Source: Anaerolineae bacterium
GTDB lineage: Bacteria > Chloroflexota > Anaerolineae > Promineifilales > Promineifilaceae
NCBI GenBank assembly: GCA_015486215.1
Contig: WFSA01000148.1
Coordinates: forward strand, 1-38,798
Reading direction: 5' to 3'
DNA length: 38,798 nt
The position numbers and the translations under genes were made by a program. The notes beneath the pieces were generated by a model. The model was given only the letters and a program-made list of their open reading frames with translations. It searched no databases and was not told where the DNA came from. Shown here piece by piece: positions 2,900 to 23,364 of the stretch. Position 1 is the first letter of the stretch. Each line of letters opens with the position of its first letter.

Positions 2900-5800
2900 T
2901 TATCCTTCTACGACCGTCAACAACAACGGCCGTTCCTCCCCATTAACGCCCGGATTATAATAATCATACGCACTGCTCGCGGGCGTTTGCGCCTTGAGCG
3001 GATATTTGGCCGTCATGCGATAGCTGAATTTGAACGGCTCCGTGCCGTTTAAACCGCCCAGATAGACGATGATCTGCCGTCCCGTCAGCTCATATTTTTC
3101 GATCGTTGTGCCGACATAATCGGCGGGCAGGTCGCTGGAGCGGGCGACGAGAGCGTTGAGGTCTTCCGCGTTGACCGTGAAGCCGGGCGGGATGCCCAAA
3201 TCAATGAGTGCCCAATCGGCCGTTCCCTCCGCCTCATTCATTTTTACCATCACATTCACCGTCACCGCATCATTCACCGCTAACTCCGTGCGGTCGTAAC
3301 TGACGGCGATTTCCACCAACTCCTTCTCGGTGAACAGATCGGGATGCGCGTCCAGCGCGTCGTAAGGCAGATAGTAGCTGCCCGTGACTTGGTACATCAA
3401 CTTCCCTTCCCCTTCCACATGGATGTCTATCACATTGTCGCCCAGCGCGATGTCGCTGAAGGTGACCATCTGCACCACGTCGAAATTGCTCTGGTTGACG
3501 GAGACGGTGCGCGTTTGGCCGTTGTTGAGGGTGACGGTGACCGTCGCATCCAGATTTTCGGACGCTTTTTCGGCGGCGGTGATGAACGCTTTTAACGATA
3601 AGATCGTCGTCTGCGTCGTGTGCCAATTGCCAAAACTGTCCTTGCTGGCGATGAGGCTGTTCAGCCCCGCTTGTGCCAAATCCATCCGATAGCTACTGCG
3701 GAGATATGCCAATGCGGCTAAGGCGGTCGTTTCGATGCTGCCCACGTCGCCATAACTGCCCATCACCGTTGCGTCCTGCGTCTCCCATCTCGCTGCGCCG
3801 TCGGTGATGGCGGCGAAATCGGCCAATCTATCAAGCGCAGTGCGCGTGCTGTCGTGCAATGTGCTCCCCTTCGCCTCATCATAGGCGACAAGCGCATTGG
3901 CGATGAGAGCCAACTCATACGGATCGCTGACGCTGCTCATGTTTTCGCGCAGATAGTTGACCCCGTTCTGCGTGCCAGATTCGTCGGCAAAGCCCGCATC
4001 GGACAAGCCCCAGACGACGTAGGCGGTGACAGGGATCGGTTTGATCTGCGTTGTCAATTGGCTTTCGCGGAAGCCCTCACTGCTTGACCATGAGCCGTCG
4101 CTCGCTTGAATGGAGAGCAGCCAGTAGCCGATGCGTTCGATGAGGGCGGGGTCTACATTGTATATTTGGCTCATGTCGAAGAACTCTTGTAAGCCGTAAG
4201 CGGTCAACATCGGGTCTGCGGGCGGCTCGCCAAAGAGACTGAATGAGCCGCTTTTGTTGCCGACCTCAAACGTCGTCAGCCGTTGGTAGCCGAGATTGAT
4301 GTACTCTTCCGCTTTGAACTGCACTTCGGGGGCGATTTGCCCCGTCGCTTGCAGATAGTTGAGGGCGAGGACGTTGGGGTAGGTGCTGGATGATGTTTGC
4401 TCAAAACAGCCAGACGGCATTTGGAACAAACTGTCCAATCCTTCGACTACTTGGCTGGCGAGACCGGGATACACTTTGACGGTCAGGTTTTGTGTGCCGG
4501 CAATCGCTTCGGCGGGGATGGGGATCGTTGTGTTGACATCTGTTTCTGCATCCATACGGTCAGATTCAGTGAAGAAAATCTCTTTGCCGTCGGGGTAAAC
4601 TTGCACCTGCTTGACGATGGCATCGCTCATCGTGTCGCCGATGGCGGTGATTTGGAACGGTTTTGCGCCAAATTGCACCGCTTTGATGCGGAAATAGACG
4701 ACGCTGATATCGTTTGGCGCGATGGTGATCGTCTTTTGTGCGTCGTCGAGCAGTTCAAACCAGCTTTCTTGCTGTAAGGTTAAGTCTACTTGCTGGCTGT
4801 CGGGCTGATAGTTGAACACGCCGACGGGGATGCTGACTTCATCCCCCACCGTGAGCGCGAGTGGCAGATCGAGGTCAATGAAAAACTCTTGGAAGACGCG
4901 CAGGGGGGCGGTGCTGCTACCTAAACGGCCGTTTTGCGTAGACGCTAACGCCGTCATGCGCCATGTGGTGATCGAGTCAGCGACGGGGATGTCAATTGTT
5001 ATATTGCCGTCCGCGTCCGTCTCGCTATCGGGTAGCCAGAGCATCGTTTCGGGGAAGTATTGACGCAGGCGGGGCGGTTCACTGCCCGTTTCCCCGCTTT
5101 GGGCGAGACTTTTGTCGGCGGCGGCATCAGCGGCGACAGGCATAGCCGTATCCATAGCCGCCCCCTCAAAAACCATATTATTTTCCATCAGCATCATATC
5201 ATTGCCGCCGCGCATTCCCATGCCGCCGCCTTGCGCCATCAAGCCTGCAAGGGGTATGGTTAATGTGCCTAATGCGACGAATAGAGCGGGAACTGCCGTT
5301 CCCCATCGCCGATCAAACATAAATCCAGCCGAGCGCATCAGATATGCGAGCGGCAGTAAGAACAAAGCCAGTGCGGCTGCGCCCATGTCGCTTAGATAGA
5401 AGTCGCTTATATCGTCAATCACCCCCATCCCGACCGCCAACAGGATAAAGAGCAGTGTTAAGCCCGTCACCCATCCCAACGCATTATCTCCTTTGCGCCG
5501 TGCAACGATGGCGAGAATGATGAAGCTGATCAGAACGATTGGTACGAGGACAGCGGTAATGGGATCGCCGTTGTACCAGAAAAATTCATTGATGAGGTAG
5601 AAGATGCCCGATATAAAGATAAATGATAAGAGGCCGAGCGCAATCGTTATCCCCACTTTTTTGAGAAAGCTGCCAGAACGCCAGACGGCGGTGACAGTGA
5701 ACCCTATTGCGGCCACAGGGATGAGTATCAATAGCCAAAAGAGGAGTTTGCTCAGATTGGTGAAGTAGATGCCTTGCTGATCGTAAGCGATTTGCATGTT

Positions 5801-7804
5801 TGCGTCATGGGAGTTGATGTTAAGGGTGTGATCGGTGGTCATCAACGCAGCTTCTGCCAGCGACGCTTTGGCCGCTCCTTCCTGTGCCTGCCGCAAAAGC
5901 GGGTCGCTGACCGGCTCGCCGCCGATTAGATCGCCGATTAGATCGCCGATTAGATCGGGGACAGAAAAGCCGTGCAGTTCATATTTGGGCTGCAAAAGTT
6001 CCTCTTCTAGCATGAAATACAGTTTGGCAAAGCCTGCGTCTTGCTCGGCAAGGGCGAAGACCGCTTCGTCCACGACGGCCAGCCCGATGGCTGAGGCCGC
6101 CCCTGTGCCGTCTTGATCGGTGACGTTGATGTTGAGAACGGCCGTGTTTCCCGGCCGATATGTTTCTTGGTCAGTCGTCAGCGTCACCGCTAATTCGTCG
6201 GCATTGTCCACCAATACGATGCGCGTGTCGCGTGCCATCAATCCTGAACGCAAAATTTTGTAAGCACGCAGTTCTAGCGTGCCGAAGAGGTCGGGGGTGA
6301 GGTCAATCGCTGCTTCCGCACGGCCGTTTTCCACCTTAATCGCGCGGGTGCTGACTGTCTGCCCCTCGCGGATGATGTCCAAATAAATTGTGCCAGAGGG
6401 GGCGGAGGTGAGTAAGGTCAGGTTCATCGTCCCGCCAACTTGGTACACGGGACGGTCGGGGCGCAGCAAGACGGACTCTTCTTGGTATACGCTGTCGAAG
6501 TAGAAGTATTGGTCGGCGCGATTGCCTTGTGGATCAACGGCCGTTATATTGACCTCTTGATACGAGTCTTCGGGGGTGAATGGGATTTCTGCTAGCCCGT
6601 ATTCGCCCGTTTCGACGGTGATTATCTCGTTTCCTATGGACATCTCGAGTGAGGCGGGGGCGGGACGGCCGTCGGGATAACTAATCAGCACATACAAAAT
6701 GTTTTCTACGCCGGGACGGAATTGGCCGCCTTCGGGGATGGCGTTGATGATCAAATTGCTGCCGGTGACGGGGAAGGTCAGCCCTTCGCTTTGGGTGTGG
6801 TTGGTCTGATCGGTGACATGTGCCTGCAAGTAGAATGTGCCTGTGCCGCCGTCTAAATCGGTGCCGACGATGTAGTCGGGCAAGGTGAAGGTGAAGGGAA
6901 AACGGCCGTTCTCATCCGTCGTCCCCTGCACGGTGAACACCCCCTGCCGCTCAAAATCAAAGGTGAACCCTTCGAGCGTGATCTCTGCGTTGCTGACTGC
7001 TTTGCCGAAGAAGTACGCCGCGTCAACTGTGCCGTTGACAAGTGCGCCAGGTTGGTAATACGGCCGCTCCGTCTCCACGCTAATGTTGAATTTTGGTAGC
7101 ACATACCGCTCCACCGTAACTGTTTTTTCTGAAGAGACCCCGTTCAGAATGGCGGTGATTTTATACGCGCCGCTGTTGACCTGATCGGCTAATTGGAAAT
7201 CGGTAAACGCCACACCAAAATCGCTTGTCGTCTGCGTTTCACGGAAAATAGTGTTCCCTTTGCCGTCGGCAATGATCAGTTCCATCTTCATCTTAGCGGC
7301 CGGAGCGAGGTCAAACGTGGAGAGAGCCAACGCCCGCAGATGGATGATTTGGCCGGGTTGGTAAAGCGGTTTGTCGGTACTCAACAGCACGCGGTAATCG
7401 CGGCTGATGGCGACGGTCTGCTCGATGCTGTCTTTGCCCAAGCGGGATTTTGTGTTAATGATGAGTGTATATCCCACATTTTCGTCATCAGGAACGGTGA
7501 AATTCAGTTCCGCGCCGCCGTTTTCGTCCGTTTTGCCGTCATAAATGACGATCTCATCGCCGCTGGGCGACTTCAAGATGGCTTCAACATCAGCATTGGG
7601 CAGCGGGGCGGCATCGCTACTGTCGCGCACGGCGACGCGCATGGCGGCTTGGCTGCCGGGTACAAGCTGGCTCTGTCCTAATAGGATGGTTTCGTGTTGG
7701 CTGAGGTGGTCGGGCAGATTGTAGTAGTAGATGGAAACGGCCGTTAAGCCCAGAATAAAAACGAGCGCGCCGAGTGCGCCCCATACTTTTCTTAATTTGA
7801 ACAT
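2900..7804 (-). CDS. Alpha-2-macroglobulin-like thioester protein with an inserted six-helix membrane domain
   Basis: A 1634-residue envelope protein of the bacterial alpha-2-macroglobulin family, expected to trap proteases or bind targets through a thioester. The ATG at 7804 has GGAGG upstream. Residues 8-30 form a signal anchor. Macroglobulin domains follow (TDKPLYQPGQ-type MG2 near 140; VLPKFNISVETERPYYQPG near 235). The A2M segment is near 910-1010, the thioester motif is C1133-F-E-Q1136 in a helical TED domain (about 1100-1430), and the C-terminus (about 1500-1634) resembles a receptor-binding MG domain. Unusually, residues about 685-857 hold six hydrophobic helices between the MG and A2M parts, preceded by a DLIG tandem repeat (near 615-629). 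An even helix number keeps both halves on the same, presumably outer, face. No penicillin-binding protein 1C neighbour is present. Confidence 0.85.
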   Translation of the reverse strand: MFKLRKVWGALGALVFILGLTAVSIYYYNLPDHLSQHETILLGQSQLVPGSQAAMRVAVRDSSDAAPLPNADVEAILKSPSGDEIVIYDGKTDENGGAELNFTVPDDENVGYTLIINTKSRLGKDSIEQTVAISRDYRVLLSTDKPLYQPGQIIHLRALALSTFDLAPAAKMKMELIIADGKGNTIFRETQTTSDFGVAFTDFQLADQVNSGAYKITAILNGVSSEKTVTVERYVLPKFNISVETERPYYQPGALVNGTVDAAYFFGKAVSNAEITLEGFTFDFERQGVFTVQGTTDENGRFPFTFTLPDYIVGTDLDGGTGTFYLQAHVTDQTNHTQSEGLTFPVTGSNLIINAIPEGGQFRPGVENILYVLISYPDGRPAPASLEMSIGNEIITVETGEYGLAEIPFTPEDSYQEVNITAVDPQGNRADQYFYFDSVYQEESVLLRPDRPVYQVGGTMNLTLLTSAPSGTIYLDIIREGQTVSTRAIKVENGRAEAAIDLTPDLFGTLELRAYKILRSGLMARDTRIVLVDNADELAVTLTTDQETYRPGNTAVLNINVTDQDGTGAASAIGLAVVDEAVFALAEQDAGFAKLYFMLEEELLQPKYELHGFSVPDLIGDLIGDLIGGEPVSDPLLRQAQEGAAKASLAEAALMTTDHTLNINSHDANMQIAYDQQGIYFTNLSKLLFWLLILIPVAAIGFTVTAVWRSGSFLKKVGITIALGLLSFIFISGIFYLINEFFWYNGDPITAVLVPIVLISFIILAIVARRKGDNALGWVTGLTLLFILLAVGMGVIDDISDFYLSDMGAAALALFLLPLAYLMRSAGFMFDRRWGTAVPALFVALGTLTIPLAGLMAQGGGMGMRGGNDMMLMENNMVFEGAAMDTAMPVAADAAADKSLAQSGETGSEPPRLRQYFPETMLWLPDSETDADGNITIDIPVADSITTWRMTALASTQNGRLGSSTAPLRVFQEFFIDLDLPLALTVGDEVSIPVGVFNYQPDSQQVDLTLQQESWFELLDDAQKTITIAPNDISVVYFRIKAVQFGAKPFQITAIGDTMSDAIVKQVQVYPDGKEIFFTESDRMDAETDVNTTIPIPAEAIAGTQNLTVKVYPGLASQVVEGLDSLFQMPSGCFEQTSSSTYPNVLALNYLQATGQIAPEVQFKAEEYINLGYQRLTTFEVGNKSGSFSLFGEPPADPMLTAYGLQEFFDMSQIYNVDPALIERIGYWLLSIQASDGSWSSSEGFRESQLTTQIKPIPVTAYVVWGLSDAGFADESGTQNGVNYLRENMSSVSDPYELALIANALVAYDEAKGSTLHDSTRTALDRLADFAAITDGAARWETQDATVMGSYGDVGSIETTALAALAYLRSSYRMDLAQAGLNSLIASKDSFGNWHTTQTTILSLKAFITAAEKASENLDATVTVTLNNGQTRTVSVNQSNFDVVQMVTFSDIALGDNVIDIHVEGEGKLMYQVTGSYYLPYDALDAHPDLFTEKELVEIAVSYDRTELAVNDAVTVNVMVKMNEAEGTADWALIDLGIPPGFTVNAEDLNALVARSSDLPADYVGTTIEKYELTGRQIIVYLGGLNGTEPFKFSYRMTAKYPLKAQTPASSAYDYYNPGVNGEERPLLLTVVEG

Positions 7805-12280: not shown

Positions 12281-13159
12281 CTAATAAATACTTGGAATAA
12301 ATGTCTGATCACTCATCGGTGGACGAATATACCCTGTATTTTCTTCACGCGGCGGTAACTCGATAGGCGGCAATGAAACATCTTCATACGGAATTTGGCT
12401 CAAAATATGGGTAATCGTGTTCAAACGCGCCCGTTTCTTATCATCAGAATTAACAACATACCATGGGGCTTGCTTGATGTCTGTATGCTCAAACATACGA
12501 TCCTTTGCCTTAGAATATTCTACCCAGCGACGACGATCTTCTAAATCCATCGGGCTGAGCTTCCATCGTTTGTATGGGGTGTCCACCCGCGCCTGAAAGC
12601 GTTTCTCCTGCTCTTCATCACTAACAGAGAACCAGTATTTTAATAAAATGATGCCAGATCGTACCAACATGCGTTCAAATTGCGGGCATGAGCGCAAGAA
12701 CTCTTTGTACTGATCATCGGTGCAAAATCCCATTACAGGCTCAACCAAAGCGCGGTTGTACCAACTGCGATCAAGGAGGACAATTTCACCAGCGGCTGGT
12801 AAATGGGCAACATACTTTTGGAACCACCATTGTGTTTTTTCGCGGTCGCTTGGCTTGGGTAAGGCGGCAACGCGCACGGCCGTGTTGCTGGTACGCTCCA
12901 TTATCCGTTTGATAACTCCTCCCTTGCCTGCACCGCTGCGCCCCTCAAAAAGAATGACAACACGCAATCCTTCTTGTGCGACCCAGTATTGCAATTTGAC
13001 TAATTCAGTTTGCAAACGAATCAATTCAGCTTCGTAATACGCTGTTTTGAGCTTCCCATTTTTCTTTACTTCTGGTGGGCTGCTTGGCAAAAGATGTTTC
13101 GGAATACCAAGAGATTCATAACGATCAACTTTCGGTTTACCATCATTCTTCTTATTCAT
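12281..13159 (-). CDS. ppk2: Polyphosphate kinase 2 (PPK2 family)
   Basis: A 292-residue cytosolic enzyme that transfers phosphate between polyphosphate and nucleotides. The ATG at 13159 follows an AAGGAGA site. Walker A is G73-R-S-G-A-G-K79-G-G; most PPK2 proteins have G-R-D-A-A-G-K, so the two middle residues differ here. The Walker B-type LLDRSWYNRALVEPVMGF has Asp130. RVDTPYKRWKLSPMDLEDRRRW near residues 195-215 matches the lid region, and DKKRARLN is the usual C-terminal motif. Length is normal for a class I single-domain PPK2. It lies 62 bp downstream of the WS/DGAT gene on the same strand, so the two are probably co-transcribed. Direction (ADP/GDP synthesis versus AMP use) cannot be decided from sequence alone. 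Confidence 0.93.
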   Translation of the reverse strand: MNKKNDGKPKVDRYESLGIPKHLLPSSPPEVKKNGKLKTAYYEAELIRLQTELVKLQYWVAQEGLRVVILFEGRSGAGKGGVIKRIMERTSNTAVRVAALPKPSDREKTQWWFQKYVAHLPAAGEIVLLDRSWYNRALVEPVMGFCTDDQYKEFLRSCPQFERMLVRSGIILLKYWFSVSDEEQEKRFQARVDTPYKRWKLSPMDLEDRRRWVEYSKAKDRMFEHTDIKQAPWYVVNSDDKKRARLNTITHILSQIPYEDVSLPPIELPPREENTGYIRPPMSDQTFIPSIY

Positions 13160-13221
13160 AGGTGTATCTCCTTAATATGCGAGTTATGAACTGCAAGTGT
13201 GCATGTGTATGCCTGCCTGCA

Positions 13222-14646
13222 TCATTCCTCTTCTTGTGGACGGGTGATGTCTAATAAATAGGTATAGTCCACATTGAACCCATCCAAAATTTTATCGGGA
13301 TCTGCGATTAAGCCAGTGTCGGTGACGATGCCCATCATCACCTGACCAGCGTAGCTGATAATGCTAAGCCCTAGACTGACACGCCCAGCTTGCGGAACCC
13401 AGAACATGAGACTTTTGATTTTGCCGCCAGCCATATAAAGCGGGATGGGCGGGCCGGGAACATTGGTCATAACGGCCGTTGCTTTTGCCGCCACTTGCCC
13501 GACTATGCCCGCCTGCATCTCTTTGGGCGTAAGCCCTAATACAGACAATAGGCCTAATGCGGCCGTCGCTTCTGACGAATTTTTCAACTTTGCCATGCGT
13601 TTATGGACTTCTTGCAACCGTTCCAGCGGGTCTTCAATACCAATAGGCAAGGAGAGGAATACCAAACCAAACTTATTCCCTAACTCCTCCATTTCATCCG
13701 CTTTGCGTAAATTGACGGGTATAGCTGCCCGAAAATTCACTCCTTCAACCGACTCGCCCCGTTCGATCATATAATGACGCAACCCGCCAACCAATGCAGT
13801 CACCAGCACATCGTTGACCGTTGTCCCTGTCGCGTTTTTGATTGTTTTTACATCAGCTAACGGTATCGGATCAATCCAGATACCCTGTTTACGCACGCCC
13901 AATTTGCCGCGATAAATCGTTTGCGGGTCTGACGGACGGAGCAGTAAACGGCTGACAGCGATCGCCCCGTCAGCACCTGTCTTCGCTATATTGAATAGAT
14001 GCCCGCGATCGGCAAAGATCGCGTCACGCTCTTTTTTGATGAAGCGGGCGGTCGAACGGGTAAAATTGACCGTATTTACCGCCCGTTGCGCGATCACGCT
14101 GATACCGCCGCGCAATAATTTCCGTCTCTTTTTCTTCTTGGGGGTGGAGTCATCACTATATTTATGCAATGGTGCATCATCAGTGAAGTCAGCCATCGCC
14201 AATAGCAAAAACATTAACGCCATTCCGTCAGCGATGCAATGATGAAGCCGCACGATGATCGCGCTCCCTTCTTCATACTCTTCTATAAAATGGAATTGCC
14301 ATAACGGCTTGCTAAAATCAAGGGGGGTGCTGAGTAAATTGCTGGCGAGTTCTTGCAACGCGATCTTGCCGCCCGGTTTGGGCAATGCAGTACGAATCAG
14401 ATGGGAACGTATATCAAAATTTGCATCTTCTTCCCAATAAGGCGGGTTGAGCGGCACATGCGACTCGCGCACGCGCATACGAAAGCGATCAAATTTGAGC
14501 CAACGGACTTCCAAAAGTTCCTGAAACCGAGCGAAAGAAACTGGCCTGTCAAATGTTAGAACGCCAGTCACCATCATAAGATTGGTCGGGTCTTCCATTC
14601 CCAGCCATGCAGAGTCTACACTGGATAATGGTACGGTTTTACTCAT
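13222..14646 (-). CDS. Wax ester synthase/diacylglycerol acyltransferase (WS/DGAT)
   Basis: A 474-residue acyltransferase that makes wax esters or triacylglycerol from acyl-CoA, usually at the inner membrane face or lipid-body surface. The ATG at 14646 follows AAAGGAG. The condensing motif HHxxxDG is present as H135-H-C-I-A-D140-G141. The N-terminal LSSVDSAWLGMEDPTNLMMV is the family signature, and VTNVPGPPIPLYMAGG near residue 390 plus the following GLSIISYAGQVMMGI are the usual C-terminal motifs. Length is standard (450-480). It is the first gene of a probable two-gene unit with ppk2. The nearby acs and beta-oxidation genes fit acyl-CoA storage and turnover. Substrate preference is not readable. 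Confidence 0.93.
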   Translation of the reverse strand: MSKTVPLSSVDSAWLGMEDPTNLMMVTGVLTFDRPVSFARFQELLEVRWLKFDRFRMRVRESHVPLNPPYWEEDANFDIRSHLIRTALPKPGGKIALQELASNLLSTPLDFSKPLWQFHFIEEYEEGSAIIVRLHHCIADGMALMFLLLAMADFTDDAPLHKYSDDSTPKKKKRRKLLRGGISVIAQRAVNTVNFTRSTARFIKKERDAIFADRGHLFNIAKTGADGAIAVSRLLLRPSDPQTIYRGKLGVRKQGIWIDPIPLADVKTIKNATGTTVNDVLVTALVGGLRHYMIERGESVEGVNFRAAIPVNLRKADEMEELGNKFGLVFLSLPIGIEDPLERLQEVHKRMAKLKNSSEATAALGLLSVLGLTPKEMQAGIVGQVAAKATAVMTNVPGPPIPLYMAGGKIKSLMFWVPQAGRVSLGLSIISYAGQVMMGIVTDTGLIADPDKILDGFNVDYTYLLDITRPQEEE

Positions 14647-14767
14647 GAATTGCTCCTTTATTATGAAAATACGAAATTATAGCCCATTTTTTCTTATTTA
14701 TTAGGAATATATGGAGGATAGTATAACCTAATTTGGAAAGGTGTGGAAATTTGTCGATTATATGAAT

Positions 14768-14975
14768 TAGGGCGATTGCAACCTCGCCTTAATTCGTGAT
14801 CGTTTTCGTGATCGAAAATCGAAAAAACCGATCACGAAACCGATCACGAAATACGATCACGACAATCATAACGCATAAATTCTTCGTAATTCACATGTTA
14901 TGTCAATTGCGGAGCTGCTAAAAACGGTGTAAATTTGGAATTTAACAGTGCGATTTGGAGGTTGCAATCGCCCTA
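14768..14975. mobile_element. MITE-like element, family C, complete copy C3 with ~10-bp target duplication
   Basis: A 208-bp element from TAGGGCGATTGCAACCTC to GAGGTTGCAATCGCCCTA. It contains a run of CGTGATCG / CGATCACGAAA short repeats whose number differs between copies. TTATATGAAT occurs at 14758-14767 and 14976-14985. A second left-end fragment (TAGGGCGATTGCAAC) directly follows. Confidence 0.85.
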
Positions 14976-15006
14976 TTATATGAATTAGGGCGATTGCAAC
15001 ATTAAG

Positions 15007-15163
15007 AATTGGACACTGATTGCATAGATGAATACAGATAAAAAGGTATCTTCTCAATAAATCGTGGACAAGACTTGATAAATTTTAGGAAAATTTGTCA
15101 AGTCTCCCCAGAATACTGAGGAGATACATGAAAAGGTAAAATTAGTGTGATCAGTGTCCAATT
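15007..15163. mobile_element. MITE-like element, family J, copy J2, with a family A element inside
   Basis: Ends AATTGGACACTGAT and ATCAGTGTCCAATT are inverted copies. The family A element 15046-15127 lies within it. The complete uninterrupted relative is at 28285-28377. Confidence 0.7.
15046..15127. mobile_element. MITE-like element, family A, internally deleted copy A3
   Basis: An 82-bp version lacking the central loop of the 112-bp form. Ends GTATCTTCTCA / TGAGGAGATAC. Flanks ATAAAAAG (15038-15045) and ATGAAAAG (15128-15135) look like an 8-bp target duplication with one mismatch. Confidence 0.82.
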
Positions 15164-15175
15164 TCAAAACAAGAT

Positions 15176-15318
15176 GTATCTTCTCTATATTTCGGGGTGA
15201 CTACAATGGATGAAAGAAATAAACGGATAGCGCAGTCGAGAAAATATCCATTTATTTTCATAATCCGCTGTAGTCATATTAAAAATAAAATAATTTCCCC
15301 GCTTTTTTGAGAAGATAC
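15176..15318. mobile_element. MITE-like element, family B, copy B2
   Basis: A 143-bp element GTATCTTCTCTATATTTCGG...GAGAAGATAC with inner arms GGTGACTACA / TGTAGTCAT. Closely matches 28098-28240 and (inverted) 33065-33207. No exact target duplication at this copy. The rest of 14647-15499 shows no gene. Confidence 0.83.
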
Positions 15319-15499
15319 CCAATTTTCTATAAAAGACGAGTATGCAATCGTCCTAATTGTATGAATGTGTTGTCTGATTTGTGCAGGAATGACGTTTTCT
15401 GACAGCTTGTTTACGTTTTTCCTCTCTTGCAACCCATGACGCACTGTGTTATAAATATATTGATGACGCACTGCATCATAAGCATGGGAACGTATAAGA

Positions 15500-16846
15500 A
15501 TGAGCCGAATTTATTTGAGTTTAGGAACAAATCTAGGTGACCGTCACGCGAATTTGGAACACGCGATTGATGCACTGCGCGAGGGGACGGGTGTATCAAG
15601 CGACATTGAAATGGCGCGCGGTATTTTGATAACGCACATATCCCCTCTTTACCAAACAGCCCCATGGGGTGTGACTGATCAGCCTGATTTTCTCAACCTT
15701 TGTATTGCCGCTAAAACTGACCTTTCTCCGCATGATCTGCTCGCTTGTCTAAAAACAATTGAAACTGAATTGGGGCGCGAAACGGCCGTGCGCTGGGGAC
15801 CTCGCCTGATTGATATCGACATCCTCTTTTATGATGACTTAATAATGCAAAACGACAGGTTGACCATCCCCCATGTCAGCATCGTCGACCGTGCCTTTGT
15901 GCTTGCCCCGTTGGCAGATATTGCCCCCGATTTTATTCACCCGCAGACGAATCAATCCATCAAAATTATGCTCGATAAACTTGACCAAACGGCCGTTACC
16001 AAACTCCCCCATCCCTTCTTCGCTGATCACACCCGCATCATGGGCATCATTAACGCCACTCCCGACAGCTTTTCGGGTGACGGGCTGGACGGCAATATTG
16101 CCGCCGCCGTTGCCCAAGCAATCCAATTTGCCGCCGATGGCGCAGATATTTTAGACATCGGTGCCGAAAGCACACGGCCGGGAAGCAGACCGATTACCGC
16201 TGATGAAGAGATAGCGCGGTTGATCCCAGTGATAACGGCCGTTCGTGCCGCCACTGATCTACCCATCTCCGTAGACAGCTATCGCGCCCCCGTCGCCGAA
16301 GCCGCTTTGAACGCGGGGGCGGATTGGGTCAACGATGTGTGGGGACTGCGGATGGATGACGGGATGGCCGCTCTCGTTGCCCGTGCGGGCTGCCCTGTGG
16401 TGCTGATGCACAATCGCAGCCAGCCGAAAGAGGTGGCGCAAGAAGCGGCACTCGGCGGGCGGTATGTTGGCTCAACATATGACAACCTGCTGGCCGATGT
16501 GAAGTGTGAACTGGGCAAAAGTGTCACCCTCGCCCTTGCCGCAGGGGTGAAAAAAGAGCAGATTATTCTCGATCCGGGCATCGGCTTTGGTAAAACGGTC
16601 GCCCAGAATTTGGAACTGCTTAACCGCTTACCAGAGATAAAAGCGATGGGATACCCCATCTTATTAGGCACATCGCGCAAGTCGTTTATTGGCTACACGC
16701 TTGATCTGCCCCCCGATGAGCGGGTGGAAGGGACAGCCGCCACCGTTGCCATTGGCATTGAACGGGGCGCGGACATCATCCGCGTCCATGACGTAAAAGC
16801 GATGGCGCGTGTCGCCAAAATGACAGATGCGATAGTGAAAAGATAG
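15500..16846 (+). CDS. folKP: Bifunctional HPPK-DHPS, folate biosynthesis (FolK-FolP fusion)
   Basis: A 448-residue cytosolic fusion that catalyses two consecutive folate steps: pyrophosphorylation of 6-hydroxymethyl-dihydropterin, then condensation with p-aminobenzoate. Residues 1-~160 are HPPK: YLSLGTNLGDRHANL, then PWGVTDQPDFLNL and RWGPRLIDIDILFYDD with the Mg-binding D-x-D. Residues ~178-448 are DHPS: IMGIINATPDSFSGDG, DIGAESTRPGS, then DPGIGFGKT and LLGTSRKSFIG. A ~20-residue linker joins the domains. The ATG at 15500 has only a weak AAGA-type site. No folB or folE lies nearby. The gene leads the run of plus-strand genes, followed by acyl-CoA dehydrogenases that are functionally unrelated. 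Confidence 0.95.
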   Translation: MSRIYLSLGTNLGDRHANLEHAIDALREGTGVSSDIEMARGILITHISPLYQTAPWGVTDQPDFLNLCIAAKTDLSPHDLLACLKTIETELGRETAVRWGPRLIDIDILFYDDLIMQNDRLTIPHVSIVDRAFVLAPLADIAPDFIHPQTNQSIKIMLDKLDQTAVTKLPHPFFADHTRIMGIINATPDSFSGDGLDGNIAAAVAQAIQFAADGADILDIGAESTRPGSRPITADEEIARLIPVITAVRAATDLPISVDSYRAPVAEAALNAGADWVNDVWGLRMDDGMAALVARAGCPVVLMHNRSQPKEVAQEAALGGRYVGSTYDNLLADVKCELGKSVTLALAAGVKKEQIILDPGIGFGKTVAQNLELLNRLPEIKAMGYPILLGTSRKSFIGYTLDLPPDERVEGTAATVAIGIERGADIIRVHDVKAMARVAKMTDAIVKR

Positions 16847-16922
16847 AGTGTTGAGATAGAGATAGAGAGGGCGTACAAGACCATAATGTTCTCTCTATCT
16901 CTACACTCTATCTCTATCTTTT
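16846..16922. repeat. GAGATA/TATCTC intergenic hairpin 1
   Basis: Purine-rich GAGATAGAGATAGAGAGG and, after a short loop, pyrimidine-rich TCTCTATCTCTACACTC text form a long imperfect hairpin filling the gap between folKP and the next gene. Related hairpins fill 18037-18121 and 23045-23094. Confidence 0.75.
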
Positions 16923-16938
16923 CTCCGAAGGAGAAGAA

Positions 16939-18030
16939 ATGATAGATTTCCGATTAGATGAAGAGCAAAAAATGTTGACCGACGCGATTGCGCGGTATTC
17001 ACGGGAGATGGTTCGCCCTGTTCATCGTGATGCAGAGGAAAATCGAGCGATCCCGTCGGCCGTTGTGGAGGCGGGCTGGGAGATGGGGGTGTTGCCGAGC
17101 GGTATTCCAGAGGAGTACGGCGGCTTTGGCGAGTATTCGGCGGTGACGGGTGCGGTGGCGACAGAGGCGTTTGCATGGGGCGATCTGGCGGTGACGATGA
17201 GCTTGATGACCCCCAATTTAGTCGCCGTACCGTTGATGCTGTCGGGGACGGAAGCGCAGAAAAAACGGTATTTGCCCGCCTTTTGCGAAGAGCGGATGCC
17301 TGATATGACAGCGGCGATCACCGAACCTCGCATTCAATTTTCGCCTTATACATTGCAGACAACGGCCGTTTTCAAAAACGGCCTTTATTATCTCAACGGC
17401 GAAAAAACGATGGTTCCGCTGGCTGATTTAGCCCAAACGATCCTCGTTTACGCCAGCGAAGGGAGCAAAACGGAAGCGTTCCTTGTCCCAGCCGACACGG
17501 TCGGCCTCACCATTGGCGAACGGGATAAGTTGATGGGCGTGCAAGCGTTGCCCACTTTCAAAGTATCGCTCAACGATTGCGTCATTCCAGCTGCCAACAA
17601 ATTGGGCGGTGGTGATGGGATTGATTTTGACAAGATTATGAGTCATAGCCGTGTCGCCTTAGGTGCGGCGGCGGTCGGGATGGCACGCGCGGGGTTTGAA
17701 TACGCCCGCGATTACGCTAAAGAGCGGGTGCAGTTCGACGAACCTATCGCCCATCGTCAATCCATCGCCTTCATGTTGGCGGAGATGGCGACCGATGTGG
17801 ACGAAGCGCGGCTGATGGTATGGGAAGCGGCGTGGAAATTGGATCGAGGCGAGGATGCTGTGCGGGAAACGGCCGTTCTCAAGCGGCACATCGACGAAAT
17901 GGTCGTCCGCAACGCCGATCGTGCCCTGCAAATTCTCGGCGGCTACGGCTACATCCGCGAATATCCTGTTGAATTATGGCTGCGTAACGCACGCGGTTTT
18001 GCAACCTTTGATGGGTTAGCCATCATCTAA
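16939..18030 (+). CDS. Acyl-CoA dehydrogenase family protein with degenerate active-site motifs
   Basis: A 363-residue flavoprotein-fold member of the acyl-CoA dehydrogenase family (first step of beta-oxidation in canonical members). The ATG at 16939 has GAAGGAGAAG upstream. The N-terminal helical domain, a middle beta-domain and a C-terminal helical domain (RVALGAAAVGMARAGFEYARDYAKERVQF-type region; ILGGYGYIREYPVE) are visible. The usual TEP-G-A-G-S-D flavin/substrate loop reads TEPRIQFSPYT. The IYEGT motif with the catalytic glutamate is replaced by TFDGLAII at the very C-terminus, and the protein is ~15-20 residues short. It precedes a fully canonical paralogue by ~100 bp, so it may be a non-catalytic partner in a hetero-oligomer, or use another base. 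Family certain, activity uncertain. Confidence 0.85.
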   Translation: MIDFRLDEEQKMLTDAIARYSREMVRPVHRDAEENRAIPSAVVEAGWEMGVLPSGIPEEYGGFGEYSAVTGAVATEAFAWGDLAVTMSLMTPNLVAVPLMLSGTEAQKKRYLPAFCEERMPDMTAAITEPRIQFSPYTLQTTAVFKNGLYYLNGEKTMVPLADLAQTILVYASEGSKTEAFLVPADTVGLTIGERDKLMGVQALPTFKVSLNDCVIPAANKLGGGDGIDFDKIMSHSRVALGAAAVGMARAGFEYARDYAKERVQFDEPIAHRQSIAFMLAEMATDVDEARLMVWEAAWKLDRGEDAVRETAVLKRHIDEMVVRNADRALQILGGYGYIREYPVELWLRNARGFATFDGLAII

Positions 18031-18036
18031 AGAAGT

Positions 18037-18121
18037 GTAGAGATAGAGGGTAGAGACAGAGGGAAACGCGCAAAAGTGGCGTTGTGCGTGTCTCTCTATC
18101 TCTATCTCTCGTCTCTATACT
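18037..18121. repeat. GAGATA/TATCTC intergenic hairpin 2
   Basis: GTAGAGATAGAGGGTAGAGA and the inverted TCTCTCTATCTCTATCTCTC arms fill the gap between the two acyl-CoA dehydrogenase genes. Same sequence style as 16846-16922 and 23045-23094. Confidence 0.75.
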
Positions 18122-18134
18122 TTACGGAGTAATT

Positions 18135-19409
18135 ATGATTGATTTTGAACTACCCTCATTTATTCAAAACCAGAACCAACTGATTAAGATGGTTGCGGAA
18201 CAAGCAATGCGGCCGTTTTCGCGCGATTTGGATGAGAATGAGCATACACGCCCCGATGCGTTTGTTGATATGACATGGCCGTTTACAAAAGAGATGATGA
18301 AGCGTGATTTGAAACGGATACAAACGGCTATTGATGCGAACGGTGTATCTAAAAACGGCTCCGCGCCTAAAAAAGAGAAGAAGGTCAACATGGGCGCGTT
18401 GTCGCTGATTTTGATGATTGAGCAATTGAGCTGGGGCGACACAGGGCAATACCTTTGCCTGCCGCACCCGATGTTGGCTGGCGCAGCCGTTTCCTCATCT
18501 GGCACACCCGAACAGCAGATCAAATTCCTCAGCCGCTTCACCGAAGGAGACCCCAAATGGGGGGCGATGGCGATCACCGAGCCGGGAGCGGGGTCTGACA
18601 ATAGCTCGATGCGAACAACGGCCGTTCTCGACCCCGACACCAACGAATGGATTCTCAATGGCGAGAAAATCTTCATCACCAGCGGCGGCATGGCGTTGGA
18701 AGAGTCGGATGGCATCTGTATCGTCTGGGCGACAATTGATCCCGACGCGGGACGGGCGGGCATCAAATCATTTGTCGTCGAAGCGCATAATCCGGGCGTG
18801 ACTGTCGCTAAACCAGAGCATAAGCTCGGCATTCGCGCCAGCGATACGGTATCGCTCCATTTCAACAACGCTCGCGTGCCTTACGAAAATTTGCTCGGCA
18901 ATCCTGAAATCAAGCAGAAAAGCCGCAAAGGGTTCAAAGGGGCGATGAAGACATTCGACTCCTCCCGTCCGGCCGTCGCCGCCAGCGCGATGGGGACGGC
19001 TCGCGCCGCCCTTGAGTTCACGCTGGAAACGCTGGAAAAAGAGGGTGTTGTGATTGATTATCGCAAGAGCAAATTTGAGATGACGGCCGTTGAAGCCGAC
19101 CTCATGGAAATGGAAGCGCGATACAAAGGCGCGTGGCTGCTCACCCTCCGCGCCACCGCCCAAATCGCCCACAACGAGAGCAATCGCTTGGAAGCCAGCA
19201 TGTGCAAATTCCGCGCTGGCGAAGCCGTCACCTGGATCACCCAAAAAGCGGTCGAACTGCTCGGCCCGCTCGGCTACTCCCGCGACATGCTGGTCGAAAA
19301 ATGGATGCGCGATGCCAAAATCAACGACATCTATGAAGGCACGAAGCAGATCAATCAACTGATTGTCGCTCGCAGTATTCTTGGCTATACGCGCCGTGAA
19401 CTCAAATAG
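18135..19409 (+). CDS. Acyl-CoA dehydrogenase (FadE-like, canonical)
   Basis: A 424-residue FAD enzyme introducing the 2,3-trans double bond into acyl-CoA. I chose the ATG at 18135 because TTACGGAGTAA lies just upstream; the in-frame codon at 18084 falls in the preceding repeat. The flavin loop AITEPGAGSDNSSMRTTAV, the GEKIFITSGG motif and the C-terminal IYEGTKQINQ with the predicted catalytic base Glu401 are all present. An insertion near residues 65-85 (KNGSAPKKEKKVNMG) is longer than in short-chain enzymes. Together with the preceding degenerate paralogue and downstream FadN and FadA it completes a beta-oxidation cycle. Chain-length preference is unknown. Confidence 0.93.
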   Translation: MIDFELPSFIQNQNQLIKMVAEQAMRPFSRDLDENEHTRPDAFVDMTWPFTKEMMKRDLKRIQTAIDANGVSKNGSAPKKEKKVNMGALSLILMIEQLSWGDTGQYLCLPHPMLAGAAVSSSGTPEQQIKFLSRFTEGDPKWGAMAITEPGAGSDNSSMRTTAVLDPDTNEWILNGEKIFITSGGMALEESDGICIVWATIDPDAGRAGIKSFVVEAHNPGVTVAKPEHKLGIRASDTVSLHFNNARVPYENLLGNPEIKQKSRKGFKGAMKTFDSSRPAVAASAMGTARAALEFTLETLEKEGVVIDYRKSKFEMTAVEADLMEMEARYKGAWLLTLRATAQIAHNESNRLEASMCKFRAGEAVTWITQKAVELLGPLGYSRDMLVEKWMRDAKINDIYEGTKQINQLIVARSILGYTRRELK

Positions 19410-19422
19410 AACGCGGCATGTA

Positions 19423-19496
19423 AGGGCGGGATTGCGCGGAATGGCGTTGGTAGAAACAAAACCAGCTTGCCTCCGCGCAATCTCGCCCCTACGCAG
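19423..19496. repeat. REP-like hairpin after the acyl-CoA dehydrogenase
   Basis: GGCGGGATTGCGCGGA and TCCGCGCAATCTCGCCCC form a long near-perfect inverted repeat 14 bp after the stop codon. No clear U-tract. It may stabilise the 3' end of the upstream transcript. Confidence 0.65.
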
Positions 19497-19604
19497 ATAA
19501 ATATCATCATTAGAATCACTGTCTATTTGGTTCGCCGCTATCCTCTTGTTTTTATTTACGCTATACTATGGTCAATGTAATTCTGACAGCAAGAGGTGAA
19601 TGAA

Positions 19605-20018
19605 ATGGAATCTTTATCATTTGATTTGAGCGACGTTAAGACAGTCTACGACAGCTCTGGAAACCAAAAAGAGGTCATTCTTAGCTACCAAAAGTTTCGA
19701 CAAATCAAAGAATTCCTTTTTCAGTTCCGTTCTGATGATCGGGATGAATCTCGGCGTATAGTTGAGCAGGAAAAAGCGGTGATGGATCGAGAAGAATCCG
19801 CTTATCACAAATTACATCCTTCATTGTTAGAAAAGTATCCGAATCAATATGTGGCAATTTATGGCGGGGAGTTGGTTGACCACGATAGCGATCAAGTTGA
19901 CCTATATTTGCGCGTCAAATCTCGCTATCCAGATAGATTCGTTTGGATAGCACCCGTTCATGCAGAGCCAGAAGAGATTTATGTCACCCGTTCCCCTCGT
20001 TTTGATGGAGCGGGCTGA
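19605..20018 (+). CDS. Small DUF5678-like protein, first gene of a two-gene cassette
   Basis: 137 residues, soluble. The ATG at 19605 lies 8 nt after AGAGG; a GTG at 19596 overlaps that site and is less likely. The N-terminus (KEVILSYQKFRQIKEFL) resembles the operator-binding end of small antitoxins. The middle is charged and helical. The C-terminal part (LEKYPNQYVAIYGGELVDHD, then PDRFVWIAPV) fits the DUF5678 pattern of a short beta-rich domain. The stop codon overlaps the ATG of the downstream aspartic protease by one base, so the two are translationally coupled. Role unknown: it might be substrate, inhibitor or partner of that protease. Recognition of DUF5678 is by pattern only. Confidence 0.7.
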   Translation: MESLSFDLSDVKTVYDSSGNQKEVILSYQKFRQIKEFLFQFRSDDRDESRRIVEQEKAVMDREESAYHKLHPSLLEKYPNQYVAIYGGELVDHDSDQVDLYLRVKSRYPDRFVWIAPVHAEPEEIYVTRSPRFDGAG

Positions 20019-20410
20019 TGATTTATACGCATGAATATGATACAGAGTACGCCTTCGGCCCCGCATTACCCATCATTGACATAACTATCTCGTCTATTGA
20101 TGGCGCATATGACAGCGAAGAGATGCGAGCGTTAATTGATTCTGGAGCCGATGCCACCATAATTCCCCTGAATGTATTGAGTAGTGTTAACGCAGATAAA
20201 GTTAGGCGAGCGCGAATGCGTTGGGGATCGCACCACAGTCGTACTTATGATGTTTATCTGGTCATGTTGCAAATTGGACAGTTTCAAATACGCGGTGTGC
20301 GTGTTTTGGCAGATAAATTCAGCGACGAAATTATATTAGGACGTAACGCGCTGAATCAGATGATTGTGACATTAAATGGTTTAGCTAATGTCGTAGAAAT
20401 TTCACAATAA
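20018..20410 (+). CDS. Retropepsin-like (clan AA) aspartic protease
   Basis: A 130-residue predicted single-lobe aspartic protease, which would act as a homodimer. The catalytic motif is ALI-D41-S-G-A-D-A-T-I-I-P, a D-S-G variant of D-T-G, followed by the alpha/beta core and EIILGRNALNQMIV, matching the conserved I-L-G-R-(D/N) flap partner near the C-terminus. No signal peptide or membrane segment, so it should be cytosolic. It starts inside the stop codon of the preceding DUF5678-like gene (TGATG). The pair interrupts the beta-oxidation cluster and has no evident metabolic link to it. Substrate unknown. Confidence 0.82.
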   Translation: MIYTHEYDTEYAFGPALPIIDITISSIDGAYDSEEMRALIDSGADATIIPLNVLSSVNADKVRRARMRWGSHHSRTYDVYLVMLQIGQFQIRGVRVLADKFSDEIILGRNALNQMIVTLNGLANVVEISQ

Positions 20411-20496
20411 ATGAATAATTAGTGATGAATTAGGGCAACCCAACCCCCTGATAGGCGCGACCATCAATAATTCATGATTAACAATTCATTATTCGA

Positions 20497-20642
20497 CATG
20501 GTTCAAATTAGGGTAAATCATCTTTACAGTGTTGGGCATGGCGACACCATGCCCGTACCATGATCACTCGTGTAGGGGCTTGGCGTTGCCATGCCCAATG
20601 CCACAAACAGTGTAAAGATGAAATGTTCATTATTGAACCATG
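20497..20642. mobile_element. MITE-like element, family G, copy G2
   Basis: CATGGTTCAAATTAGGG... to ATTGAACCATG, with inner hairpins GGGCATGGCGA / TTGCCATGCCC and an AGTGTAAAGATG motif shared with 68-213. It ends 30 bp upstream of the fadN start and so forms part of its leader or promoter region. Confidence 0.75.
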
Positions 20643-20672
20643 TCCATTATTCATTATTACCAAGGAGACCAC

Positions 20673-23045
20673 ATGAGTTATCGCATTGATAAAGTCGCCA
20701 TTATTGGCGCAGGAACGATGGGGGGCGGCATTGCTGCTCACCTTGCCAACATTGGCATTCCCGTCGTTCTGTTAGACATTGTTCCCCCCAATTTGACCGA
20801 TGAAGAGAAGAATGATCCAGCCGCGCGCAATCGTATTGTGCAGAGTTTGTTTACGCGCATGGCGAAGGCGAAACCCGCCAATTTGGCGCGGAAAGATCGG
20901 GCTGACCTCATCAGTATCGGCAATACCGAAGATGATTTTGACAAAATCGCGGATGCGGATTGGATTATTGAGGTGATTATCGAACAGTTGGCTCCAAAAC
21001 AGGCGTTGATGGAGCGGATTGAGGCGGTTCGCAAGCCAGGTAGCTTTGTGACTTCCAATACGTCGGGTATTCCGATCAATGAGATTGCAAACGGCCGTTC
21101 TTCCGATTTCAAAGCGCACTTCCTCGGCACCCATTTCTTCAATCCCCCCCGTTACCTCAAACTGCTGGAACTCATCCCCACCGCCGACACCGATCCCGCC
21201 GCGCTGGAGTTCTTCAAAGCATTCGGGACTGACGTGCTGGGCAAAGGCGTGGTCGTTTGCAAAGATACCCCCAACTTCATCGGCAACCGCTTCTTCGCCA
21301 TCGCCGCCAGTTATGCGATTGAGAAAGCGTTGGTCGGCGGCTTCTCCGTCACCGACACCGACATGATCACTGGGCCGCTGATTGGCCGCCCGAAAACGGC
21401 CACCTTCCGCCTGATGGATTTGGTCGGGCTGGACATTATGGGGCATGTGATCAGCAATCTGTACGCCGCCACTCCCGATGATGCGTACCGCGACATTTTA
21501 GTCGCCGAGAAAAGCCATACCTTAGTCAACACAATGATCAAAAATGGCTGGCTGGGGAACAAAAGCAAGCAAGGGTTCTCCAAAAAAGTTTTTGTAGACG
21601 GCAAACGGGAATTCCATACGCTGAATTTAGCCACGCTGGAGTATGAACCATCTGGCAAGACGCGGTACGAATCGGTGGGCAAGGTTCGTAAAGTTGAGGA
21701 TTTGGGCGAACGTCTGCGCGGTTTGCTGGCATTTGACGATGCGGCCGCCAATTATGCCCGAGACGTGCTGTTCTATGGCTTCGCCTACGCCGCTTATGTT
21801 GCGCCTGAAATCGCGTACAAATTGAGCGATGTGGATGACGCGATGCGCTGGGGCTTTGCCCATGAAGCTGGCCCGTTTGAAATGTGGGATATGCTCGGCG
21901 TGGCCGAAACGGCCGAAAAGATGGAAGCGGCCGGTTTACAGGTCGCCGATTGGGTGAAGGAGATGTTGGCGAGCGGCCGCACCTCCTTCTACAGTGACGA
22001 AGATGTGTATGATTGGGATAGCAAAACGGCCGTCACCCTCCCCATCGACAAAAATATCATCCACCTTGAAGGGTTGAACAAAGTCGAAAGCAACATGAGC
22101 GCAAATTTGCGCGATATGGGCGACGGCATCGCCCTGTTGGAGTTCACCTCCAAGATGAACGCCATCGACGCGGACATTATCGAGATGACGCATAAAGCGT
22201 TAGCGCGGCTAGACAGCGATTTTGACGGGCTGGTCATCGGTAACGAGGGCGCGAATTTCAGCGTCGGGGCGAATATTTTCGCCGTCGCCGTCTCTGCTCA
22301 GCAAGGGATGTGGGATCAGTTGGACGCGATGATTCACGGCTTGCAGGATGCGACCTTTAAGCTACAACATGCACCAAAACCAGTGGTAACGGCCGTTCAC
22401 CAAATGGCACTCGGCGGCGGCAACGAGTACGCGATGGCTGGCTGGGAAGCGGTCGTCGCCCATGAGTCATACATGGGATTGGTCGAGTTCGGCGTGGGTC
22501 TCATCCCCGCTGGCGGTGGCTGTAAGGAGACGTTACGCCGTCGCCTCAACCCCGTCATGGCCGACGCAAACGCCGACGTATTGCCGACGATGCAATCCGT
22601 CTTTGAACAAATCGCCCTTGCAAAGGTTGCCACCAGCGCATGGGAAGCGCGGACGATGGGATACGTTCACAATGACGACACCATCGTGATGAATAGTGAC
22701 CATCGCTTTGCCAAAGCGAAACAACGCGCCATGCAGCTTGTCGCTGCTGGCACGCGCCCGCCAGAGGTTGAAAAAATCTATGCGGCTGGGCGTGATGTGT
22801 ATTACGCTTTGCAAATGGGGATCAAAGGGTTGCAATGGGGCAATTATGCTAGTGAGCATGACGCACTCGTCGCTAAAAAGCTGGCGTACATCCTCTGCGG
22901 TGGTGACAGCAGCGCGGCGGGATGGGTTGACCCATGGGTCATCCTCGATTTGGAACGGCAGATGTTCATGGAATTGCTGCACGAGCAAAAGACGATTGAT
23001 CGGATGATGCACATGCTGCAAACGGGCAAACCGTTACGGAATTAG
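20673..23045 (+). CDS. fadN: 3-hydroxyacyl-CoA dehydrogenase/enoyl-CoA hydratase, FadN type
   Basis: A 790-residue bifunctional beta-oxidation enzyme, almost exactly the length of Bacillus FadN. The ATG at 20673 follows AAGGAGA. The dehydrogenase comes first: VAIIGAGTMGGGIAAHLAN (NAD-binding, Gly12/14/17), then GTHFFNPPRYLKLLELIP and the second HCDH domain to about residue 420. The hydratase/isomerase domain (about 475-700) follows, with NFSVGANIF, ALGGGNEYAMAG and GLVEFGVGLIPAGGG holding the acidic residues expected in FadN. The reversed domain order relative to E. coli FadB is characteristic. FadN normally works with FadA, here 730 bp downstream beyond the VapBC-like pair, and with FadE-type dehydrogenases, here upstream. 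Confidence 0.95.
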   Translation: MSYRIDKVAIIGAGTMGGGIAAHLANIGIPVVLLDIVPPNLTDEEKNDPAARNRIVQSLFTRMAKAKPANLARKDRADLISIGNTEDDFDKIADADWIIEVIIEQLAPKQALMERIEAVRKPGSFVTSNTSGIPINEIANGRSSDFKAHFLGTHFFNPPRYLKLLELIPTADTDPAALEFFKAFGTDVLGKGVVVCKDTPNFIGNRFFAIAASYAIEKALVGGFSVTDTDMITGPLIGRPKTATFRLMDLVGLDIMGHVISNLYAATPDDAYRDILVAEKSHTLVNTMIKNGWLGNKSKQGFSKKVFVDGKREFHTLNLATLEYEPSGKTRYESVGKVRKVEDLGERLRGLLAFDDAAANYARDVLFYGFAYAAYVAPEIAYKLSDVDDAMRWGFAHEAGPFEMWDMLGVAETAEKMEAAGLQVADWVKEMLASGRTSFYSDEDVYDWDSKTAVTLPIDKNIIHLEGLNKVESNMSANLRDMGDGIALLEFTSKMNAIDADIIEMTHKALARLDSDFDGLVIGNEGANFSVGANIFAVAVSAQQGMWDQLDAMIHGLQDATFKLQHAPKPVVTAVHQMALGGGNEYAMAGWEAVVAHESYMGLVEFGVGLIPAGGGCKETLRRRLNPVMADANADVLPTMQSVFEQIALAKVATSAWEARTMGYVHNDDTIVMNSDHRFAKAKQRAMQLVAAGTRPPEVEKIYAAGRDVYYALQMGIKGLQWGNYASEHDALVAKKLAYILCGGDSSAAGWVDPWVILDLERQMFMELLHEQKTIDRMMHMLQTGKPLRN

Positions 23046-23094
23046 ATAGAGGGTAGAGATAGAGGAATTAACGGCCTCAGTCTCTATCTTTCCT
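23045..23094. repeat. GAGATA/TATCTC intergenic hairpin 3
   Basis: AGATAGAGGGTAGAGATAGAGG and TCTCTATCTTTCC arms occupy the gap between fadN and the antitoxin-like gene. Shorter than the copies at 16846 and 18037. Confidence 0.65.
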
Positions 23095-23110
23095 TATAGA
23101 ATGAGGTGGA

Positions 23111-23359
23111 ATGATGATTGAGATGGATTATGAGACAACATTACAAGGGGTTCGGCAGTGGTCGTTGCCTATGCGTGTAAATTTTATGCAAGATATGTTA
23201 TCAATGATTTCATCAGAAGTAACATTACCACGTCAAAAAAGAGACACCTATTCCCAAGCTTTGGGATTAGCCGCTTCGGATGACATTATATGGACAGATG
23301 AAATGGTTGATCTCGTGATTCAAGAAGAGAGAATGAAAAAATATGGGCTTGGGGAATAA
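23111..23359 (+). CDS. Antitoxin-like small protein of a PIN-domain toxin
   Basis: 82 residues. GAGGTGGA precedes two consecutive ATGs (23111 and 23114). The protein has an N-terminal helix (LQGVRQWSLPMRVNFMQDML) and a C-terminal tail (DEMVDLVIQEERMKKYGLGE) like the toxin-wrapping tails of PIN antitoxins, commonly DEEV...W..ERR..KYG. No clear DNA-binding fold can be named. The stop is 5 bp before the PIN gene, and antitoxin-first order is typical. Codon use is more AT-rich than the adjacent fad genes and the gene has no ACGGCCGT palindrome, suggesting acquisition. Confidence 0.7.
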   Translation: MMIEMDYETTLQGVRQWSLPMRVNFMQDMLSMISSEVTLPRQKRDTYSQALGLAASDDIIWTDEMVDLVIQEERMKKYGLGE

Positions 23360-23364
23360 TAATC

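Follow-up and report, generated by a model that had tools for sequence, protein, structure and literature searches.

The stretch of DNA analysed here, referred to as the window, comprises 38,798 nucleotides of contig WFSA01000148.1 from an Anaerolineae bacterium (Chloroflexota; assembly GCA_015486215.1). Its open reading frame at positions 2900-7804 on the minus strand, which is the strand of all of the features located below within this frame, is a single gene encoding an alpha-2-macroglobulin (A2M) of 1634 residues. A tail of about six residues (MFKLRK) precedes an N-terminal signal anchor (residues 6-28, positions 7721-7789; hydropathy 2.18), which is followed by the macroglobulin (MG) domains from MG1 to MG6beta (residues 40-585, 6050-7687), assigned from Pfam and from the strands of the model. 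Beyond a membrane insert lie MG6alpha and MG7 (residues 910-1080, 4565-5077), the thioester domain (TED; residues 1117-1407, 3584-4456; Pfam 2.8e-40) and a C-terminal MG or receptor-binding domain (residues 1531-1619, 2948-3214; 6.2e-10). The Pfam families MG2, MG3, A2M_BRD (447-585), A2M (920-1010), TED_complement (1117-1407) and A2M_recep (1531-1619) all score over the cut-off, and the order MG, A2M, TED, receptor-binding is that of a type I A2M. The TED carries the CXEQ motif as GCFEQ (residues 1132-1136, 4397-4411), with TGT as the Cys codon and with Phe, Glu and Gln invariant across 22 homologues. The best sequence matches in the PDB are CD109 (1.1e-65), insect TEP1, A2ML1 and human A2M, and Escherichia coli YfhM is a much weaker match. 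The product is most likely a membrane-embedded, thioester-containing A2M that would function as a trap.

Inserted between the MG block and the A2M/thioester block are a stalk and six transmembrane (TM) helices (residues 665-859, 5228-5812), as an earlier note on this DNA had proposed. With a Kyte-Doolittle threshold of 1.6, hydrophobic segments are found at residues 6-28 (the N-terminal anchor), 679-710, 716-743, 745-772, 773-802, 804-830 and 835-858. AlphaFold gives six helices for the insert, at 665-709, 713-741, 748-771, 774-797, 807-830 and 834-859, of which the first begins with a stalk of about 20 residues. The insert folded by itself gave a mean predicted local distance difference test (pLDDT) score of 91.3 and a predicted template modelling score (pTM) of 0.83. 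It is flanked by the Pfam A2M_BRD and A2M domains and itself matches no Pfam family. The inside loops contain 17-29 Lys and Arg residues per 100 and the outside loops about five, and the inside loops are the richer in these residues in 49 of 49 homologues. This charge distribution places both soluble blocks on the outer face of the cell, as had been predicted, with the protein tethered twice, by the N-terminal anchor and by the bundle. The preceding linker (residues 586-664, 5813-6049; pLDDT low in part) does contain the DLIG repeat that the earlier note had described as flanking the insert (three copies, residues 617-628, 5921-5956), and this repeat is not conserved, being missing from nearly all homologues.

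A sequence-profile search of the PDB with the bundle gave weak, scattered matches only (best E of 0.0046), and structural comparison with Foldseek and VIA-align gave none that was convincing (best E of about 1; best Z of 7.8, which is common for helical bundles), so that the bundle may still have a known fold. An enzymatic bundle was considered and rejected, as there are neither near-invariant residues nor a Pfam match.

The position of the insert is not arbitrary, a point that the earlier note had missed. The chain leaves MG6 after the strand ending in AVVDEAVFAL and re-enters it at RQYFPETMLW, the start of MG6alpha, so that MG6 is split at the site occupied in A2M by the bait region and in C3 by the linker, anaphylatoxin and alpha'NT segment. 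As modelled, residues 515-1083 can be superposed on C3 treated with methylamine (8oq3) with a root-mean-square deviation (r.m.s.d.) of 2.8 over 216 residues (model residues 21-562) and on CD109 (9fx2) with an r.m.s.d. of 2.9 over 203 residues, and both superpositions span the split MG6 and MG7. The slot for the soluble bait of a type I A2M is present and is filled by the six-helix bundle and by a Met/Gly-rich linker of about 50 residues, noted earlier as adjoining the insert, which follows helix 6 (residues 861-909, 5078-5224) and is predicted to be disordered (pLDDT below 50). The linker and the bundle are the least conserved regions of the protein (mean column identity of 0.41, compared with 0.61-0.72 elsewhere; residue numbers in alignment A1, where the window row lacks Met1, are one lower than those used here), and the length of the linker ranges from 31 to 57 among homologues. 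Low conservation is as expected of a bait, and the variable linker is probably the real one, at which cleavage would take place.

About 50 homologues keep the bundle in one reading frame. They are spread across Anaerolineae, so that the architecture does recur elsewhere in Chloroflexota, and include the cultured isolate Longilinea arvoryzae KOME-1 (L070); outside the class, by record label, they occur in Omnitrophota (L093), Verrucomicrobiota (L113 and L115), Deltaproteobacteria (L104) and Patescibacteria (L105). In other homologues the slot holds two membrane helices (L045/L106, L102, L046 and L126), a short linker (L053-L058) or, in L127 and related loci, which form a clade spanning Armatimonadota and other phyla, a soluble domain of the type II secretion protein G (T2SSG) type, which is pseudopilin-like (Pfam 4.7e-8 in L127). 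An even number of helices, whether two or six, fits the need for both blocks to lie outside. In a tree built by a quick method from 86 rows of the C-terminal block, the insert requires three changes. The window protein is an A2M with a new slot filling.

Known systems share parts of this arrangement. E. coli ECAM/YfhM and Salmonella enterica SaA2M likewise have MG domains, a CXEQ motif in the TED, a C-terminal MG domain and an N-terminal membrane anchor, but YfhM, matched at residues 932-1224, has a bait region that is soluble and disordered, and by sequence the window protein lies nearer to CD109, TEP1 and human A2M. CD109, A2ML1 and human A2M also have a split MG6 and a thioester domain, although their bait is a short soluble loop without membrane helices. 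The complement proteins C3, C4 and C5 resemble the window protein in carrying a whole extra domain in the same MG6 slot; this domain, the anaphylatoxin, is small, soluble and released by a convertase, whereas the insert of the window protein is a membrane bundle.

Some relatives, here called sisters, carry a further domain on the cytoplasmic side. A zf-HC2-like anti-sigma domain precedes the first TM helix in L016 and L025 (family f11), in L047-L050 and L052 (f22) and in L051 (f51), with Pfam zf-HC2 values of 4e-11 for L016 and 1.5e-10 for L047, and a homologue of extracytoplasmic function (ECF) sigma factors lies directly upstream of the anti-sigma A2M in eight of eight Anaerolineae genomes (fused loci L016:291-6357, L025 and L047-L052; associated loci L168-L171, L173 and L174). 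The Omnitrophota protein L093 has the same domain (1.3e-7), and the ECF gene upstream overlaps its own. An overlapping ECF gene also lies upstream of L112, whose cytoplasmic N-domain has no family assignment, and in L113 and L115, with N-domains likewise unassigned, the ECF gene lies just downstream. By comparison, 59 of the 66 distinct loci with enough upstream sequence have no ECF homologue within 700 nucleotides, and most of the other seven are long-tailed; no recurrent neighbouring gene family was found near the A2M of short-tailed members. The sisters resemble RsiV/SigV-type and zinc-finger ECF anti-sigma receptors in having a cytoplasmic zf-HC2 or anti-sigma part, a TM helix, a large outer domain and an adjoining ECF gene. 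Unlike in these single-pass receptors, the outer part is an A2M that brings a second membrane module, of six helices, and the window protein differs in having no anti-sigma part. The fused domain and the adjacent sigma gene, both read from the sequence, indicate that the membrane-A2M architecture is probably also used as a receptor. We found no link between A2M and anti-sigma factors in the literature searched, although an earlier mention is possible.

With some reserve, we consider the best explanation of the whole to be a membrane-embedded thioester trap in which the linker is cleaved and a protease captured, and which in the sisters signals; bait cleavage, capture and signalling are the steps that we infer. 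The signal anchor would place MG1-MG6 outside the cell, and the chain would cross the membrane six times between the two halves of MG6 before passing, outside once more, through the disordered linker of about 50 residues into MG6alpha, MG7, the TED and the C-terminal MG domain. An external protease would cut the linker where it lies exposed next to the membrane; with the two halves of MG6 then parted, the contact protecting the thioester would be lost, allowing the Cys1133-Gln1136 thioester to capture the protease covalently on the membrane-anchored protein. The bundle would keep the N-terminal half in the membrane and the linker would act as the bait. Such a course of events has a counterpart in the cleaved form of the homologous E. 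coli protein, in which the bait, once freed, is in competition with the contact that protects the TED, giving cleavage-triggered activation (PMC4498604). In the anti-sigma sisters, cleavage or capture would probably reach the inner side of the membrane as a transcriptional signal, and a displacement passed through the membrane could release the sigma factor.

Three observations weigh against this explanation. No near-invariant residue was found in the bundle among the aligned homologues. The window protein has no anti-sigma domain, its tail being only MFKLRK, and no ECF homologue within 700 nucleotides. Finally, the anti-sigma forms of f22 and f51 stop after MG7: in five f22 genomes and in G187 the protein ends there and no TED was found in the flanking downstream sequence, so that part of the family cannot act by covalent capture. 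The suggestion that the insert couples thioester capture to a membrane event finds indirect support in the anti-sigma and ECF sisters; the window copy has neither such a domain nor a nearby sigma gene.

The absence of near-invariant residues means that the bundle could be a passive extra anchor, holding the trap near the membrane with no part in activation or signalling. Poor conservation of the bundle speaks for this, as does the lack of a sigma partner in the short-tailed lineage to which the window protein belongs. However, the bundle occupies the single site at which A2M and C3 proteins are triggered and is retained across phyla; for a mere anchor either end would serve, and the N-terminus already bears one. 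We regard a purely passive role as rather unlikely.

We are similarly doubtful of a second alternative, in which the protein is a precursor that a signal peptidase would cleave close to where helix 6 ends, yielding two chains like those of mature C3; the lipobox-like Cys that many members have there would then serve as the lipid anchor for the half containing the TED. Of the 49 aligned bundles, 15 have such a Cys (in LTGCA, LLGCA, LSSCA or LVGCA) past helix 6, as do L047-L052, the two-helix variants L046 and L126 terminate in textbook lipoprotein signals (RRRWMLIGLALALVSVILSAC; RRRRHMVIALLVLSLGAFFWGAC), and signal peptidase II was found in 12 of 12 genomes tested. Against it, neither the window protein nor its nearest relatives have the Cys, a Pro-containing stretch lies between helix 6 and the Cys in many members, and processing within a polytopic protein would here be hypothetical. 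As an observation in its own right, a mid-protein lipobox-like Cys after the last membrane helix in L046, L126, L011, L012, L016, L018 and others suggests internal processing by signal peptidase II. An assembly chimera of an A2M gene with a membrane-protein gene, which the lack of any known family matching the bundle might suggest, is refuted for all practical purposes by the identical, unsplit fusion, as one protein in a single reading frame, in the approximately 50 homologues from unrelated assemblies and from the isolate genome.

The membrane-embedded trap that we favour has a second set of sisters, in which the thioester Cys appears to be replaced by selenocysteine (Sec). In a search of the class, the matches in 15 genomes held exactly one stop each, TGA every time, and on reading the DNA this in-frame TGA sits at the thioester Cys codon (G-TGA-FEQ). 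A scan of 396 Anaerolineae genomes for the UGA pattern gave 28 hits, of which 20 lie in A2M genes, all 20 with a downstream hairpin; the other eight were set aside as chance hits with neither the A2M context nor the hairpin. The UGA thus occupies the thioester position in 20 genomes of nine families (loci including L013, L017-L020, L022, L024, L028, L030, L033-L035, L039-L041, L077, L078, L080, L083 and L090). The window copy, with its TGT codon, has no in-frame UGA at this position, and elsewhere in Chloroflexota the Sec variant was found in none of 400 genomes, 345 of them outside Anaerolineae. In the tree described above, the UGA/Cys state requires three changes.

The hairpin (ACGUC-NNN-GACGU; 20 distinct sequences), which resembles a bacterial selenocysteine insertion sequence (bSECIS), begins 13 nucleotides past the UGA and has a three-base loop starting with G. 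Its complete 5-base-pair stem is present in 20 of 20 Sec copies and in none of 67 Cys copies, whereas random synonymous codons would produce it in about 2% of cases per sequence. Four third-codon positions within it are G in 100% of Sec copies; in Cys copies the commonest base is C, at 36-51%. In seven sequences the outer U-A pair is replaced by G-U, with both sides changed. Only this inner stem is claimed, because the register of a longer lower stem of the selenocysteine insertion sequence varies among sequences, and that stem was dropped. The machinery for Sec is also encoded: among 15 Sec genomes, selB is over the cut-off in 13 (and partial in the other two), tRNA-Sec is clear in 13 and selA is found in 14, and at least two of the three are clear in every tested genome except G012 (selA and split selB hits). 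All three are below the cut-off in the f51 Cys members G219, G158 and G174. In the window genome all three are present, yet its A2M copy has Cys.

Alternatively, the UGA copies might be pseudogenes, artefacts of sequencing or proteins that are cut short at the thioester. In favour of this, every one of them derives from a metagenome assembly (in one case a single-contig chromosome, CP070811.1), a confident tRNA-Sec hit is missing in two Sec genomes and selA is missing in one. We consider this very improbable given the recurrence of the same codon across families and the restriction of the hairpin to Sec copies. In addition, the ratio of nonsynonymous to synonymous substitution rates is 0.14-0.29 past the UGA, similar to or below the value before it, which indicates that the downstream sequence is under purifying selection. 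TGA also terminates some of the UGA-bearing genes (L017, L018 and L035), so it is not a sense codon reassigned throughout. Very probably, on these sequence features, the UGA sisters are selenocysteine A2Ms. They resemble E. coli FdhF-type selenoproteins in having UGA at a reactive Cys position, a hairpin with a G-starting loop (about 17 nucleotides downstream) and SelA, SelB and tRNA-Sec. In most characterized bacterial selenoproteins the fold is thioredoxin-like and carries a redox motif (PMC13188914); the sisters differ in that Sec would stand at the acyl-bond nucleophile position of a protease trap, a difference that does not concern the window copy. No A2M was found in three papers on prokaryotic selenoproteomes (PMC13188914, PMC12013277 and PMC9312934), although an earlier mention elsewhere is possible.

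In these sisters we infer that Sec and the conserved Gln possibly form a selenoester. That a lineage of membrane-embedded A2Ms has replaced the thioester Cys by Sec to make an intramolecular selenoester, and with it a more reactive covalent trap, is a reading towards which we incline slightly; we know of no other natural protein selenoester. Taken jointly with this reading, the proposal that the selenoester is borne by a protein body that in relatives serves as an ECF anti-sigma receptor seems to us marginally more plausible than not. If the Sec reading is correct, selenocysteine gains a role outside redox chemistry, in acyl transfer, and natural Cys/Sec pairs become available in which a thioester and a selenoester can be compared on one scaffold. 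More generally, the trigger slot of A2M and complement proteins accepts membrane modules of two or six helices as well as a pseudopilin-like domain, and in view of these varied fillings it acts like a socket into which different domains are plugged, anaphylatoxins being one example. The sisters with an anti-sigma or ECF partner encoded next door are concrete candidates for a bacterial A2M that senses, beyond trapping.

On another contig of the window genome, a short stretch (G000:C246:7732-7812) within a 40-residue frame matches 27 residues close to the C-terminal end of the A2M at 85% identity and is probably, judged from the sequence, a fragment of a second A2M copy. Within the window, positions 422-2812 on the plus strand encode a multi-helix protein of 796 residues that by eye is amino acid permease-like and has no Pfam match at 1e-5. 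Positions 12281-24955 encode lipid-metabolism proteins, namely a wax ester synthase, a PPK2, two acyl-CoA dehydrogenases, a 3-hydroxyacyl-CoA dehydrogenase and a thiolase, and a PIN-domain gene lies among them.
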